DNA from: Candidatus Woesearchaeota archaeon
GTDB taxonomy: Archaea > Nanobdellota > Nanobdellia > Woesearchaeales > JAAOYA01
NCBI GenBank assembly: GCA_018221105.1
Contig: JAAOYA010000009.1
Coordinates: 1 to 64,000 of the forward strand
Length of the DNA: 64,000 nt
Reading direction: 5' to 3'
Shown: positions 56,964 to 64,000 of the stretch, piece after piece
How the letters are laid out: every line of letters begins with the position of its first letter
How positions within the stretch are numbered: position 1 is the first letter of the stretch
The notes under the pieces: generated by a model
The model's database searches: none
Told to the model about the DNA's origin: nothing
Seen by the model: the letters and a program-made list of their open reading frames with translations, nothing else
Translations under genes and position numbers: made by a program

Positions 56964-57668
56964 ATGGTAACAGCACACGTAAAAAAACGAGAAGTAATAG
57001 CAAAAGACACAATAGAGGTAACAATCGAGTTAGAAAAATCAATAGTTTTCCTGTCAGGACAACACGCGACAATAAAACTAACACTTTATCATGAAGACAA
57101 AAAAGGCGGTCAAAGAATTTTTTCAATAACCAACACGCCAAAAACTGACAAGCAAATAATAATTGCCATGCGCCAAACAGGCAGCGGTTTTAAAAAAACA
57201 CTAGAAGAAATTGAAGAAGACAAAGAATTAGAAGTTGTTACAACAGGCGGAGAATTCACACTACCACAAGACACTAACAGAAAAATTGTGTTTATTGCTG
57301 GAGGAATAGGGATAACACCATTTATTGCAATGCTGCGCCACACCTTTGAAAACAATCTACCCTACAAAATAGTGCTAGTATACTCAAATAAAGACAAAGC
57401 AGCAAGCGCATATTATGATGAATTACAACAAATGCAAACAGATCACGAAAACTTCAGGCTTATACCAACAATGACATCAGACAATGATTGGAGTGGAGAA
57501 GCAAGAAGAATAGACAGTGAGTTCATAACTGACTACTTTGAAAAACCACGAGATTACACTTTCATGATAGCAGGCCCGCCAGGACTAGTGCAAAAAATCA
57601 AAACAGAACTATCAAACAGTGGAGCAGAACAGCAACACATAATAACAGAAAACTTTGAAGGATATTAA
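56964..57668 (+). CDS. FAD/NAD(P)-binding oxidoreductase (FNR family)
   Basis: QRIFSITNTP, FIAGGIGITPFIAMLRH, FMIAGPPGLVQ. Confidence 0.88.
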   Translation: MVTAHVKKREVIAKDTIEVTIELEKSIVFLSGQHATIKLTLYHEDKKGGQRIFSITNTPKTDKQIIIAMRQTGSGFKKTLEEIEEDKELEVVTTGGEFTLPQDTNRKIVFIAGGIGITPFIAMLRHTFENNLPYKIVLVYSNKDKAASAYYDELQQMQTDHENFRLIPTMTSDNDWSGEARRIDSEFITDYFEKPRDYTFMIAGPPGLVQKIKTELSNSGAEQQHIITENFEGY

Positions 57669-58090
57669 ACTTTTAAAATTATAAGATTAGTATTACCCAT
57701 GGTTCTTTTTTCAATGACTTCACGCTCAGACAATTTTTGAACAATCCTGGAAATTTTTACTTTGTTAAAACCAGACAACACTACTAATTTATTTTGCTCT
57801 AAAGAATTATTATTATCAAGCAAAACTTTTACAACAACCCTCTCTTCACGAGGCAAAACTTTTAAGACTTTTTCAAGTTGAAACTTATTAATCTTGTGCT
57901 GAAACAATAAAACAATAAAAGCTCCAATAATAATCGATAAAAAACTAATACCATAAACAATAAGCGGCAATTGTTCGTTAGTGTCACTAGTATAAAAACC
58001 ATTAACTAATGCAAATAAAACTCCTAACACGAAAACTAATATCATTCCAATGATTAATTTTTTGTTTTCAACTTCCATTTTATTTTTCAA
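57665..58090 (-). CDS. Membrane-tethered wHTH regulator
   Basis: Two N-terminal TMs then PREERVVVKVLLDNNNSLEQNKLVVLSGFNKVKISRIVQKLSEREVIEKRTMGNTNLIILKV. Confidence 0.8.
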   Translation of the reverse strand: MKNKMEVENKKLIIGMILVFVLGVLFALVNGFYTSDTNEQLPLIVYGISFLSIIIGAFIVLLFQHKINKFQLEKVLKVLPREERVVVKVLLDNNNSLEQNKLVVLSGFNKVKISRIVQKLSEREVIEKRTMGNTNLIILKV

Positions 58091-58307
58091 TCTCGCGCTT
58101 TAACCTTTGAAACTCTTTTTGATCAATTTCTCCACTAGCCAAACGCTTCTTCAAAATATCAAGAGCGCTATCACTTTGACTAGTACGATAACCATACTGG
58201 CCGCTGCTTTTGATGAGCCACCAAACAATCAAAAAGAATAACACTAAAATTAACGGTTGAAAAAACCATCCCATACCATAACCCATCATTGAAGTGTAAT
58301 GCATCAT
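58080..58307 (-). CDS. SHOCT-domain small membrane protein
   Basis: MMHYTSMMGYGMGWFFQPLILVLFFLIVWWLI...ALDILKKRLASGEIDQKEFQRLKREIEK; start at 58307 rather than 58442. Confidence 0.85.
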   Translation of the reverse strand: MMHYTSMMGYGMGWFFQPLILVLFFLIVWWLIKSSGQYGYRTSQSDSALDILKKRLASGEIDQKEFQRLKREIEK

Positions 58308-58426: not shown

Positions 58427-58783
58427 TTAGTGCATTGGACAACCGCCAAAACCGCGATTACGACCAAATCCTTGCATCATACTAGAACCTTCACTATTTT
58501 GCTCGTGGTACTCTTCCATCAGTTCATGATGTTCTTGCATAACTTCAAAACTTTCACCGTCAACAACCCAAGCCATCATATTAAAACCAGATTCTTCTCT
58601 AAAATTATCAAAGTCTTCATAAGTGCCATCTTCGATTATTAACTCCATTTGCTCATGAAAGTCTTGCTTATCATTGTTTAATATTGCTCTTTGCTCAAAG
58701 CTTCCGTGAGCGATAGCAAAACCTGACAATGCCAACAAGCCAATAGTCAACATTGCAAACAATGTAATTGTTTTCTTTTGCAT
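58427..58783 (-). CDS. Secreted Met/His-containing small protein with CPMH C-terminus
   Basis: Signal peptide; HEQMELIIEDGTYEDFDNFREESGFNMMAWVVDGESFEVMQEHHELMEEYHEQ...GGCPMH. Confidence 0.75.
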   Translation of the reverse strand: MQKKTITLFAMLTIGLLALSGFAIAHGSFEQRAILNNDKQDFHEQMELIIEDGTYEDFDNFREESGFNMMAWVVDGESFEVMQEHHELMEEYHEQNSEGSSMMQGFGRNRGFGGCPMH

Positions 58784-58823
58784 TTTATTTTCCTCCAGGC
58801 AGTTTGCCTAGTATCATATAAGT

Positions 58824-58899
58824 TGAAACAAGATAATTAAATTACTGAAACGAGAATCAAAAAAGTGAAACCAGCCTATAATTTAGTGAAACACGAAAC
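58824..58899. promoter_or_regulatory. Phased TGAAAC array between divergent promoters
   Basis: TGAAAC at 58824, 58846, 58866, 58887 (spacing 22/20/21) plus CGAAAC at 58894; flanked by divergent TATA-like boxes. Confidence 0.6.
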
Positions 58900-58931
58900 A
58901 CTTAAATAAAATATAGGTTTTGAAATAAAAT

Positions 58932-59432
58932 ATGAAAAACCGTGCTTTTGGATTAATAATTATTGGCATAGCAGCATTGATAGGGTTTATAGTGTACTCT
59001 TTTAACAGGGCATTAGACTCAATTGTGGACATTGCTTGCACTCACGGGCCGACTTGTCCAATGCAGGGAACAATAAATTTTCAGACAAGCATAGGACTTG
59101 CGATAATGTTATTACTAGTTCTTGTAGGGGTATACATGATATTTTTTAGTAAAGAAGAAAAAATAGTCACTAAAACTGTCAGAGAACAAGTAAAGCCAAA
59201 ACAGTTAAGCAAAGAACACTACAAGAAAATCTTAAACAGTATACCAAGTGACGAAAAAATAATTTTTGAAAAAATTATTGACGCAAAAGGAACTATTTTT
59301 CAATCAGAATTAGTAGAAAAAACAGATTATTCAAAAGTTAAAATCACGCGAATGCTTGATAGGTTAGAAGGCAAAGGTTTCGTTGAGCGCAAGCGCAGAG
59401 GCATGACAAACATTGTAATATTAAAGGTTTGA
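58932..59432 (+). CDS. Membrane-tethered wHTH regulator with extracytoplasmic CTHGPTCPM loop (candidate metal sensor)
   Basis: Two TMs separated by DIACTHGPTCPMQGTINFQ; C-terminal wHTH KTDYSKVKITRMLDRLEGKGFVERKRRGMTNIVILKV. Confidence 0.8.
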   Translation: MKNRAFGLIIIGIAALIGFIVYSFNRALDSIVDIACTHGPTCPMQGTINFQTSIGLAIMLLLVLVGVYMIFFSKEEKIVTKTVREQVKPKQLSKEHYKKILNSIPSDEKIIFEKIIDAKGTIFQSELVEKTDYSKVKITRMLDRLEGKGFVERKRRGMTNIVILKV

Positions 59433-59467
59433 AACTAGTTTCGCCTATTCTTATATAAAGGGTTTCA
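59430..59467. promoter_or_regulatory. TGAAACTAGTTTCG palindrome, TATA (CTTATATAAAG) and GTTTCAC
   Basis: Same core as the 58824-58899 array, bracketing the TATA box of the 59509 gene. Confidence 0.55.
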
Positions 59468-59508: not shown

Positions 59509-59697
59509 ATGGAAAACGATTGTGAAAAATTTTGTATGTGTAATTATTTAAAAAATGAATTTGACAATGAACAACCTATCGACACAGAAGATATTTATGA
59601 CAACTTATATGTTGATGAACAATTGCAAGATGATAGCATTCCGGCAGCCCTTGCGGGATTCATGACAGGGTACAATGATGACGCGATGATATCTTAA
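59509..59697 (+). CDS. Small acidic protein with N-terminal CX4CXC
   Basis: MENDCEKFCMCNYLKNEFDNEQPIDTEDIYDNLY...; AGGTG SD upstream. Confidence 0.6.
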   Translation: MENDCEKFCMCNYLKNEFDNEQPIDTEDIYDNLYVDEQLQDDSIPAALAGFMTGYNDDAMIS

Positions 59698-59714: not shown

Positions 59715-60638
59715 ATGACAAAAAACAATACAACAACAATTTCTGTAAAGGGAATGACTTGCACAAATTGCAAAAACAAAATCATGACAGAGCTAAAAAA
59801 ACTCTCGGGAGTAAAAAAAGTTCAAGTAGACCTGATTGACGACACTGCAACAGTAATATACAACAGTTCAAAAACCACAAAACAAGAACTTAACAGTGCA
59901 ATAAAAACAGCAGGTTATAATACAGGGCTTTCAAAAAAGCACAAGACAATCATCGAAGGCTTAACATACGGCCTAATGCCCCACATAGGCTGTATTGCCT
60001 TCATTATAGGCTCAATTTTAGGCGTTACAGTACTAATGCAATTTTTCAAACCACTACTTATGAACAGATACTTTTTTCACTTTTTAATACTGCTTTCAAT
60101 CGGTTTCGCAACACTTTCATCAGCATTATACCTGCGAAAAAACGGTTTTTTATCAGTCAAGGGCATTAGAAAAAAATGGAAGTATCTAAGCACGATGTAC
60201 GGTACGACAATAGGAATAAACCTAATATTGTTCATGCTAATATTTCCACTACTAGCAAATGTTTCAGTAAGTGCGACAAGTGCTAATAGTATAACAGGCA
60301 ACGCAGTATTAGATTCTCAAAGCGCTTCAACAATCACAATAGCTGTAGATATCCCGTGCCCAGGCCACGCGCCACTAATAAGCGAAGAATTAAAAACAAT
60401 CAATGGAGTGCAAAGTATTAAATTTAAATTTCCAAACAAGTTTAATGTAGCCTACAATTCAGCACTGACAAGCAAAGAACAAATGCTTTCGCTTGAAGTA
60501 TTTGATGAGTACCCTGCAACAGTATTAGAAGAACAATCAAACAGTGGTGGGTTGCGACAAGTAGACAGCCAACAACCAACAGCAAACAGCGGAGGCACTT
60601 GTGGCGCAACTGCTGGCAGTTGCGGATGCACAGGTTAA
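59715..60638 (+). CDS. HMA-domain membrane protein with extracytoplasmic degenerate HMA-like domain and Cys-rich tail
   Basis: GMTCTNCKNKIMTELKKLSGVKKVQVDLIDDTATVIY; TMs; ITIAVDIPCPGHAPLISEELKTINGVQSIKFKF; tail GGTCGATAGSCGCTG. Confidence 0.82.
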   Translation: MTKNNTTTISVKGMTCTNCKNKIMTELKKLSGVKKVQVDLIDDTATVIYNSSKTTKQELNSAIKTAGYNTGLSKKHKTIIEGLTYGLMPHIGCIAFIIGSILGVTVLMQFFKPLLMNRYFFHFLILLSIGFATLSSALYLRKNGFLSVKGIRKKWKYLSTMYGTTIGINLILFMLIFPLLANVSVSATSANSITGNAVLDSQSASTITIAVDIPCPGHAPLISEELKTINGVQSIKFKFPNKFNVAYNSALTSKEQMLSLEVFDEYPATVLEEQSNSGGLRQVDSQQPTANSGGTCGATAGSCGCTG

Positions 60639-60657
60639 AACAGGAGGAAAAATAACA

Positions 60658-61383
60658 ATGGCAAAAAAAACAAAAACTGATGACAAACTAACATTTTTAT
60701 ACTGGCTAATAGGACTAACACTAGTCTTGAGCGTAATAAACACTTACAATATAGTAAGCTTAAACAATCGATTCAGTGGAGGAACTGAATTAATAGAAGA
60801 AGCAATCCAGGCAGCGCCAAGTGGCGGTGACACTGTACCGAGCGCTCCAACAAAAGTAGACGTCAGCGCAGACGATGACGCTGTCAAAGGATTATCAAAC
60901 GCTCCAGTGACAATAATAGAGTTTAGTGATTATCAATGTCCATTCTGTGCACGTTTTGCAGAGCAGACATTATCACAAATAGAACAAAAGTACATCAACA
61001 CTGGAAAAGTAAAACTGGTGTATCGTGATTTTCCACTAAGCTTTCACGCAAACGCACAAAAAGCAGCAGAAGCAGCAGAGTGCGCTGGAGATCAAGACAA
61101 GTACTTTGAATACCATGACGTACTGTTTGAAAAACAAAGCGAGTGGTCCAATATTGGCGTAAGCAAATTCAAAGAATACGCTGCTGATTTGAACTTAGAT
61201 CAAACAGAGTTTGACACATGTTTAGACACTTCAAAACATGCAAGCGAAGTACAAAAAGACTTTGCAGACGGTCAAAAAGCTGGAGTTACAGGAACACCGG
61301 CATTTTTCATAAACGGCGTCAAAGTTGTCGGAGCACAACCATACACTGTTTTTGAACAAATAATAGAAAACGAACTAAAATAA
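60658..61383 (+). CDS. DsbA-like thioredoxin-fold protein, membrane-anchored
   Basis: N-terminal TM; VTIIEFSDYQCPFCARFAEQTL; VTGTPAFFINGVKVVGAQPY; SD AGGAGG; start 60658. Confidence 0.92.
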   Translation: MAKKTKTDDKLTFLYWLIGLTLVLSVINTYNIVSLNNRFSGGTELIEEAIQAAPSGGDTVPSAPTKVDVSADDDAVKGLSNAPVTIIEFSDYQCPFCARFAEQTLSQIEQKYINTGKVKLVYRDFPLSFHANAQKAAEAAECAGDQDKYFEYHDVLFEKQSEWSNIGVSKFKEYAADLNLDQTEFDTCLDTSKHASEVQKDFADGQKAGVTGTPAFFINGVKVVGAQPYTVFEQIIENELK

Positions 61384-61396
61384 ATCTGGTGAAACT

Positions 61397-61843
61397 ATGA
61401 AAAAAACACATGTAATAATATTAGCGATAGCTGTACTAGCAATAGGAGCTGCTTTGATGAAAGGCTCGATAACTGGTGCGGCAACAACAAACAACGGACA
61501 ATTAACAATACCATTAAGCGAACTATCAAATGACGCTAAATGGTACGAGTACGATGTAGGCGGCAAAACAATAAAGTTTTTCGCAGTAAAGAGTGGCGAT
61601 GGCAGTATAAAAACAGCCTTTGACGCTTGCGATGTATGTTATCGTTCAGGCAAAGGTTATCGCCAAGAAGGCGATTATATGGTGTGCAACAATTGTGGCA
61701 ACAAATACCTAATAAGTGATTTGGGAACAAAAAACAAAAACCCTGGCGGTTGCTGGCCAAGTTTCTTACCAAGCTATGATGACGGGCAAAACCTAATAAT
61801 TGCAGTGTCAGACCTAAAAGCAGGAGCTATTAGGTTTGCCTAA
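61397..61843 (+). CDS. DUF2318-like membrane-anchored protein
   Basis: GGKTIKFFAVKSGDGSIKTAFDACDVCYRSGKGYRQEGDYMVCNNCGNKYLISDLGTKNKNPGGCWP. Confidence 0.85.
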   Translation: MKKTHVIILAIAVLAIGAALMKGSITGAATTNNGQLTIPLSELSNDAKWYEYDVGGKTIKFFAVKSGDGSIKTAFDACDVCYRSGKGYRQEGDYMVCNNCGNKYLISDLGTKNKNPGGCWPSFLPSYDDGQNLIIAVSDLKAGAIRFA

Positions 61844-61878
61844 AAGCAATTCTTTTATAGAATACTACTATTAAATTG

Positions 61879-64000
61879 ATGAGCAGAATGAAAAAAACCG
61901 TCAACATCAAAGGAATGCACTGCGCATCATGCGTGCTAAACGTAGAAAAAAGCCTGAAAAAAGTATCTGGAGTTAAAAGCGCAGCAGTAAACCTAGCAAG
62001 CGAGAAAGCAACGGTAGAAATAGACAAAACAGTAACACACGAAAAATTAGCAAAAGCTGTCAAAGATGCAGGATACGACATAGAACAAGAAATTGATGGA
62101 TCAATATTAAATTTAAAAGTTTTGGGTATGGATAACGCGCACTGCATAGGAATTGTAGGCAGCGCATTAGACAAACTTGATGGCATAATAAACAAGGAAT
62201 TATTGCCAACACAAAAAGCTAAAATAACATATAATCCAAAAAAACTTGACACTGCAAGAATTCAACAAGTAATCAAAGATTCTGGCTATGAGAACTTTTT
62301 AGATACTGAAAGTGAAGATAAAGAAAAAAAAGCTCGTGACAAAGAAACCAAAACACTAAAAACAAAAACCTACACCGCACTAATTCTAGCACTGCCACTA
62401 TTGTATTTTGCAATGGGAGAGCATTTAGGACTGCCAATATCACAATATATAATGCAAAACATGGCATTAATACAGTTTCTAATAACAACTCCAATAATAC
62501 TAGTCGGTTACGAGTTTTACACCAAAGGAATAAAATCAGTAATCAAAGCAAAAACTGCTAACATGGACACGTTAGTAGCAGTAGGCACAGGCAGCGCGTA
62601 CTTGTACAGTTTATTAGCAGTCTTTAGTGGCAAAACAACAGACTTATTTTTTGAAGTTGCAGGAATACTAATAGCATTCATATTACTGGGGCGCTACCTT
62701 GAAGCTAAGGCTAAAGGCAAGACCAGTGAAGCAATAAAAAAACTTATTGGGTTGCAAGCAAAAACAGCTATAATAATTCGCAAAGGTAAAGAACTCACTG
62801 TGCCAATAGAACAAGTTGTTCTAGGAGATATTGTGATAGTCAAGCCAGGACAAAAAATTCCTGTAGACGGAACAGTTATCAGCGGTCACTCTTCAGTTGA
62901 TGAAAGCATGGTAAGTGGTGAGCCAATACCAGTAGAGAAAAGTAAAGGCTCAAAAGTCATTGGCGCGACAATCAATAAAACAGGCAGTTTTAAATTCAAA
63001 GCAGAAAAAATTGGTGCTGACACTTTTTTGGCACAAGTCATTAAACTAGTAGAAGAAGCTCAAGGCTCAAAAGCTCCAATACAACGATTAGCTGACGTGA
63101 TAGCATCGTATTTTGTTCCAGTAGTTGTTAGCATTGCAATAATAGCATCAACAATTTACTTTTTTATCAACGGCTTTGCTTTCGCGCTAAGCATTTTTGT
63201 CGCAGTACTAATCATTGCTTGTCCTTGCGCTTTAGGCTTGGCAACGCCAACAGCAATAATAGTAGGAACAGGTCTTGGAGCACAAAATGGAATATTGTAT
63301 AAGAATGCTGAGAGCTTGCAAAAAGCGCAAAAACTTAACACAATAGTATTTGATAAAACAGGAACAATCACAAAAGGAGAGCCAGCAGTCACTGATATTG
63401 TAAGCTTATCTGCAAGAAAACAAAATGAAATATTGCAATACGCTGCAATTTGCGAAAAAAACAGTGAACACCCACTAGCAGAAGCAATACTGCAAGCTGC
63501 CAAGAACAAAAAAATAACAGTTGATAATCCAACAAAATTCATCTCAATTACAGGAAAAGGAGTTCAAGCAACCTACAAAAACAATCAATTATTGCTTGGC
63601 AATACAACACTGTTCAAAGACAAAAAAATAACAGTTGACGCTCAAACAACAACAAAAATTGATACTTTAGAAAATAACGGCAAAACAGTAATGCTAATAG
63701 CAATCAACAAAAAACTTGAAGGTTTAATAGCAGTCGCTGACACATTAAAAGAAAATTCCAAAAACGCAATCAAAGCATTAAATGATTTAGGACTTCAAAC
63801 AATAATGATCACAGGGGACAATCAAAAAACAGCTGATGTGATAGCAAAACAAGTCGGAATAGATAAAGTTTTAGCGCAAGTTCTGCCACAAGATAAAGCA
63901 AAAAAAGTAAAAGAATTACAAGAACAAGGAAGTATTGTTGCAATGGTCGGTGATGGAATCAATGACGCTGTAGCACTAACACAAAGCGATGTAGGAATAG
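61879..64000 (+). CDS. copA: Cu(+)-type P1B ATPase (partial; runs off the window)
   Basis: N-terminal GMHCASC HMA, second [60 protein letters not shown]. Confidence 0.93.

Follow-up and report, generated by a model that had tools for sequence, protein, structure and literature searches.

What is the row of TGAAAC sites between two divergent genes of a woesearchaeal contig for, and which protein reads it? Gene regulation is very little known in the DPANN archaea, most of which have never been grown in culture. The sites are found in a window of 64,000 nucleotides (contig JAAOYA010000009.1, positions 1 to 64,000), between the gene for a secreted protein, CPMH, and that for a winged-helix protein, wHTH166 (Table 1). 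Comparison with homologous promoters indicates that the evenly spaced row is genuine and has been conserved in evolution, and that this array is the promoter-operator of the CPMH-SHOCT-wHTH141 operon. We put the probability at roughly two in three that wHTH141, itself a product of that operon, binds the array, most likely in negative autoregulation.

Table 1. Features of the array region, the two flanking operons, and the third promoter, in window coordinates
Feature	Position	Strand	Basis or remarks
wHTH141, two-TM DUF7343/MarR-like regulator, third operon gene	57665..58087	-	PF24034; proposed array reader
SHOCT-domain small membrane protein, second operon gene	58083..58307	-	PF09851
CPMH gene	58430..58783	-	Secreted Met/His-rich 118-aa protein; homologues in 29/359 order genomes
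Proximal CPMH-promoter element	58811..58851	-	GTTTCA 58846-58851, N16, GTTTCA 58824-58829, TGATAC 58811-58816
N16 spacer, inferred TATA-like box of CPMH operon	58830..58845	-	Shine-Dalgarno positions in orthologues and place of TATA in the metal-operon promoter
Third array half-site, GTTTCA	58866..58871	-	20 bp further upstream
Fourth array half-site, GTTTCA	58887..58892	-	21 bp further upstream
TATA box CTTAAATAAA of wHTH166	58901..58910	+	Sequence; inferred from archaeal promoter consensus
wHTH166, two-TM DUF7343/MarR-like	58932..59432	+	Extracytoplasmic loop CTHGPTCPM; proposed reader of the 59430 operator (adjacency across genomes)
DPANN-wide operator	59430..59466	+	Palindrome 59430-59443, TATA 59452-59459, GTTTC 59462-59466
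62-aa acidic ORF, first past operator	59509..59697	+	No family match
HMA-domain membrane protein	59715..60638	+	PF00403; recurs after the operator in other loci
DsbA/thioredoxin-like protein	60655..61383	+	PF13462, PF01323
FtrD-like (DUF2318) protein	61397..61843	+	PF10080
Heavy-metal P-type ATPase with HMA domains	61876..64000, runs past window	+	PF00122, PF00702, PF00403

TGAAAC begins at 58824, 58846, 58866, and 58887, in steps of 22, 20, and 21 bp, and CGAAAC begins at 58894; ACTTATATGA lies on the minus strand at 58814-58823. These strings, together with CTTAAATAAA, the palindrome TGAAACTAGTTTCG, and the GTTTCAC of the third promoter, are all where a sequence-only reading of the window had placed them. 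TGAAAC is not enriched across the window (55 observed against 58.6 expected), and the signal therefore lies in clustering and phasing. By pattern count over the 1.15-Mb genome, TGAAAC-N13-17-TGAAAC (same strand, steps of 19-23 bp, single strand throughout) occurs five times: three times in the array, once within the wHTH141 coding sequence, and once elsewhere. The four-site 22/20/21 array has no second instance in this genome. The pair within the wHTH141 coding sequence (57879-57905, with a step of 21 bp) is probably due to chance, and a pair on contig C5 was rejected as a further member for want of an identifiable promoter context.

The GTTTCA-N16-GTTTCA pair, represented in the window by the proximal sites at 58824 and 58846, was found by pattern scan upstream of CPMH in 24 of the 359 genomes of the order (control, 1). 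Promoters of CPMH homologues have GTTTCA-GYAAAWTAGTTATCTY-GTTTCA-N5-TGAWAC in common, with an exact 22-bp step; TGAWAC follows at N7 in the window and at N5 in the others. A further same-strand GTTTCA is located 20-21 bp upstream in 9 of the 24 promoters (null mean 0.03; 0 of 2,000 shuffles), and none of the 24 has an opposite-strand GTTTCA at 20-22 bp. The other 15 have nothing at 20-22 bp that could serve as a third site, which makes the longer array optional. A site at the 41-bp offset is present in three CPMH promoters, that of the window and those of G242 and G341. The exact 21-20-22 spacing recurs in two other families, where no wHTH gene is divergent. The divergent genes of G242 and G341 are unrelated to wHTH166, and the distal sites therefore need no wHTH166 promoter. 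The conserved 22-bp pair with phased upstream copies occurs at CPMH promoters only, where its steps of 20-22 bp, in the window and in homologues alike, show the conserved whole-turn spacing of a helically phased multi-site operator. Conservation at the CPMH homologues supports the original proposal of a regulator-binding type of array with two-turn phasing, although the phasing holds for the array steps and not for the third promoter, where the distance is 24 bp. Array units are often CTNGTTTCA, matching the palindrome CTAGTTTCA, and, as in that palindrome, CT precedes 11 of the 24 first sites and 16 of the 24 second sites. This suggests that the array repeats the same operator in degenerate form.

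The core promoter of the CPMH operon probably lies within the array itself. The sequence-only reading was right about the position of ACTTATATGA, but its label as the CPMH TATA box is doubtful. In orthologous CPMH promoters the Shine-Dalgarno sequence begins as little as 29-34 bp past the proximal GTTTCA, which leaves too little room for transcription to start some 25 bp beyond ACTTATATGA. ACTTATATGA is an unlikely TATA box because the start site would fall into or past the Shine-Dalgarno sequence. The TATA-like box is more likely to be inside the N16 spacer, where a non-consensus AGTTATCT is kept among CPMH promoters. The CPMH and metal-operon promoters would then follow one plan, a TATA box bracketed by same-orientation GTTTCA sites 22 or 24 bp apart. 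On the wHTH166 side, the archaeal promoter consensus suggests that CGAAAC (58894-58899) may be the BRE of wHTH166 rather than an array site.

The gene order CPMH-SHOCT-wHTH141 is conserved in nearly all loci that have a good CPMH match. CPMH looks like a metal-binding secreted protein; it matches no Pfam or NCBIfam family, a structure search gave no meaningful match, and a sequence search of the PDB gave chance matches only. The wHTH141 sequence has a hydrophobic N-terminal pair. Both wHTH141 (38.7 bits) and wHTH166 (42.9 bits) belong to DUF7343 (PF24034, cut-off 27.6 bits), and the top Foldseek matches are MarR-type wHTH proteins, at weak E-values of at least 0.004. A third, more distant DUF7343-like protein is also encoded in the window (G000:C3:28037-28318, within a 304-codon frame).

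The sequence-only reading had named wHTH166 as the array regulator, and the distribution of the two proteins argues otherwise. All but three of the 24 genomes with the CPMH element have a wHTH141 orthologue scoring at least 100 bits, and in one of those three (G170) the contig stops just past CPMH. No Cys-loop protein of the wHTH166 type is seen in ten element genomes (G066, G128, G130, G162, G179, G233, G291, G337, G340, and G341), of which six have a completeness of 95% or more; most genomes are draft metagenome assemblies, and absence is weak evidence for any single one. Other matches in these ten score 57-86 bits by the family model, versus 140-196 for true wHTH166-type members. The wHTH141 and CPMH genes share an operon, and this linkage inflates the co-occurrence of promoter and regulator, which alone does not prove the reader. 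Because the element co-occurs with wHTH141 in 21 of 24 genomes and also persists where no Cys-loop protein is seen, the array is tied to wHTH141, which is the more likely regulator.

From these comparisons we infer that wHTH141, a membrane-anchored MarR-like protein encoded by the third gene of the operon, contacts GTTTCA half-sites. One half-site on either side of the TATA-like box would make up the 22-bp pair, and as many as two others upstream, at 20-21 bp, would lie on one helix face and could make occupancy rise cooperatively. The general transcription factors of archaea cover the stretch around TATA, and exclusion of TBP and TFB, hence repression, is therefore the simplest reading. The likeliest outcome would be negative autoregulation by blocking TBP/TFB access, relieved once CPMH and the SHOCT protein pass a metal or envelope signal to the membrane complex. 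However, the weak TATA-like box of CPMH would also suit an activator. Perhaps the regulator, bound upstream of the BRE, recruits TFB to this poor, non-consensus box, as is proposed for CopR of Pyrococcus furiosus, whose sites lie directly upstream of the BRE and whose regulated promoters have a C-enriched TATA (PMC7830388). Such activation is a tentative possibility, but one half-site is always just downstream of the TATA position, and protein bound there should hinder TFB and polymerase.

At the third promoter, the sequence-only reading had seen the same core, and TGAAACTAGTTTCG at 59430-59443 and GTTTCAC at 59462 confirm it; this operator is a bigger find than the array. No second exact copy of the palindrome GAAACNNGTTTC occurs in the genome. 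Two other candidate copies were rejected, a near-palindrome on contig C2 that is inside a gene and one on C5 that overlaps the 3' end of an ORF. In other families, the stop codon of wHTH166 orthologues is followed by TGAAACTAGTTTCA, 18 bp that include a TATA box, and GTTTC. When the 359 genomes of the order were scanned for TGAAACTAGTTTCA-N18-GTTTC with TATA in the spacer, 90 had this arrangement (control, 1). The GTDB species genomes, one per species, contain at least 113 such stretches. Among the 80 matches listed, 79 are archaeal by title, and the lone Sphingomonas match looks like chance. The matches listed are mostly from Woesearchaeota, Aenigmatarchaeota, and Micrarchaeota, and also include Altiarchaeota, Nanoarchaeota, Pacearchaeota, a Diapherotrites, and several Methanofastidiosum. 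The base profile of the 135 distinct sites whose spacing is 24 bp shows hardly any variation in the palindrome and, at operator positions 23-30, the spacer consensus TTTATAAG; the constancy of GTTTC is built in, as the search required it. The first long ATG after the operator peaks at 52-54 (36 of 131), read as leaderless starts about 26 bp past the TATA box, which would place the palindrome at about -52 to -39, TATA at -30 to -23, and GTTTC at -20 to -16.

A same-family wHTH gene ends 0-120 bp upstream of the operator in 37 of 81 loci, and most operator loci have such a gene just upstream or elsewhere. Downstream are genes for HMA proteins, HMA P-type ATPases, DsbA, DsbD, FtrD-like proteins, DUF411 proteins, cupredoxins, and AhpC/TSA. 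The linked metal-handling regulon that had been proposed is supported; the operator usually stands ahead of metal-handling gene families. The operator-adjacent wHTH proteins all have a conserved C-terminal wHTH, and 48 of 51 have a Cys-x2-16-Cys-(P/A/S) loop, often CxHGxxCPMW, between two N-terminal hydrophobic helices. An AlphaFold2 model of wHTH166 (mean pLDDT 81) has long helices at residues 2-35 and 43-72 and a wHTH at 94-164. With a predicted TM region and a DNA-binding domain in one chain, wHTH166 qualifies as a transmembrane transcription regulator, as does wHTH141 on the strength of its hydrophobic N-terminal pair. We consider it probable that these elements represent a DPANN-wide metal regulon, in which paralogous two-TM MarR-type one-component sensors have GTTTCA as their common half-site. 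In one geometry, an inverted pair and a further half-site would bracket TATA at 24 bp; in the other, direct repeats would form an array phased at 20-22 bp. The operator-linked sensor would carry an extracytoplasmic metal loop of the CxHGxxCPM type.

Some operator loci have further peculiarities. Back-to-back operators, in which a single palindrome serves a pair of divergent genes that have separate TATA and GTTTC elements, are found at L106 (G170:C71:2474-2532), L081 (G088:C4:6194-6252), L082 (G088:C15:7969-8028), and L264. Secreted, uncharacterized families without Pfam matches recur past the operator (L148, L099, L130, and others), namely 'PKGVPxIYGxELGVSYDD' proteins and a four-TM 'HCPLC' protein, as do DUF411 proteins. 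In one family (L077, L078, L080, and L082), the operator is followed by secreted Met/His-rich proteins with repeated 'EGFSSYDEMMAAHH' motifs.

The paralogue wHTH166 would use the same half-site at the neighboring metal operon, as TGAAAC-N2-GTTTCA upstream of TATA with GTTTC downstream, and the promoters of the array and of the metal operon may cross-talk. The DNA-binding domains of the two proteins are homologous (hhalign probability 99), with a common recognition-helix pattern, KV[KQ]xxR, and a TN-containing wing, and this region differs in most relatives that lack such operators. The common pattern would explain one half-site for both paralogues and, like the adjacency of a wHTH166-type operator to the CPMH element in G170 and G120, makes cross-talk plausible; co-regulation of the promoters through GTTTCA is plausible as well. 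It could even be that the array has two readers, the ancestral one being wHTH141 and the other, wHTH166, a later addition specific to the lineage, with real co-regulation in this genome. The homology, the identical half-site, and the divergent arrangement here and in G245 are consistent with this reading, which is nevertheless somewhat unlikely: the geometries differ (inverted N2 plus 24 bp versus direct 20-22 bp), and the CPMH-wHTH intergenic region of G245 has no sites near the wHTH gene.

What wHTH166 senses may likewise be read in two ways. Copper may be the signal: the HMA, heavy-metal P-type ATPase, cupredoxin, and DUF411 families are compatible with copper handling, although they do not prove which metal is involved. 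Alternatively, the system might respond to thiol redox state, given the invariant Cys pair of the loop and the presence of DsbA, DsbD, and AhpC/TSA among the targets. This is unlikely, because the targets also include those four families and because the loop adds His and Met, as in soft-metal sites.

Less likely still is the original model, in which cooperative binding of wHTH166 to the array puts its own gene, CPMH, and the downstream metal operon under joint control. The GTTTCA half-site is indeed common to all three promoters, the linkage between wHTH166 and the 59430 operator extends across DPANN, in this genome the TATA box of wHTH166 directly adjoins the two distal sites, and G170 and G120 place a wHTH166-type operator beside the CPMH element. 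However, the promoters of orthologous wHTH166 genes, including those of the nearest orthologues, have no upstream array, arrays and proximal pairs persist where no wHTH166-type protein is seen, and three- and four-site arrays stand upstream of CPMH elsewhere without a divergent wHTH166 gene. Chance repeats in AT-rich DNA, with which the lack of window-wide enrichment of TGAAAC would agree, can be dismissed: when the 148-bp intergenic region was dinucleotide-shuffled 20,000 times, three phased copies never arose and two phased copies arose in 2 of the shuffles, and conservation of the array across families already refutes chance.

A near-invariant 37-bp operator, with linked regulators and predictable targets, offers a handle on a membrane-anchored regulator at an archaeal promoter, and it could serve as a sequence marker to assign metal-stress regulons in uncultured genomes. 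If correct, the DPANN-wide regulon would be among the first predicted with a defined operator across several DPANN phyla. No published description of the system, and no match to the exact string TGAAACTAGTTTCA, was found in a literature search short on subscription papers.

Several known systems resemble parts of this one. CopR is likewise an archaeal copper regulator, linked to copA, with a semi-palindromic site directly upstream of the BRE; in contrast, it is a soluble HTH-TRASH protein with the motif TTNNCAWWWTGNNAA, whereas the regulators here are two-TM DUF7343 proteins associated with TGAAAC-N2-GTTTCA or GTTTCA arrays (PMC7830388). A profile search detected no TRASH domain in wHTH141 or wHTH166, and the operator consensus TGAAACTAGTTTCA does not fit the CopR motif. 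ArnR and ArnR1 of Sulfolobus acidocaldarius, archaeal one-component regulators bound to the membrane, depend on two inverted-repeat boxes within a promoter, but ArnR has an N-terminal HTH and C-terminal TM helices, recognizes TCGAC-N5-GTCGA, and controls the archaellum (PMC6396743). Here the domain order is the reverse, with N-terminal TM helices and a C-terminal wHTH, and the box is another, so the proteins are not of the ArnR type.

Archaeal operators of the Lrp type, for example those of Ss-LrpB, also have several sites, bound on one face of the helix at intervals of two or three turns, and often control the gene of the regulator itself, but Lrp proteins are soluble and have a RAM domain, whereas the DUF7343 regulators are predicted membrane proteins without one (PMC2995911). 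EarA, also archaeal, uses repeated 6-bp sites upstream of the BRE; its site is TACATA, its target is the archaellum, and no TATA-bracketing half-site is reported in the parts of the source consulted (PMC10665913). SurR is an archaeal wHTH regulator with GTT/AAC half-sites, but its motif is GTTn3AACn5GTT (PMC12162507). SurR-type motifs (GTTn3AACn5GTT or GTTn3ATC) were rejected for the operator, whose AAC-N2-GTT halves differ in order and spacing. Transmembrane transcription regulators similarly combine TM helices and a DNA-binding domain in one protein, and a term search of the main text of their survey found no mention of MarR-type, metal-sensing, or DPANN members (PMC10269533). The DPANN regulators are thus distinct, in the combination of protein type and motif, from CopR, ArnR, EarA, the archaeal Lrp arrays, and the transmembrane regulators.
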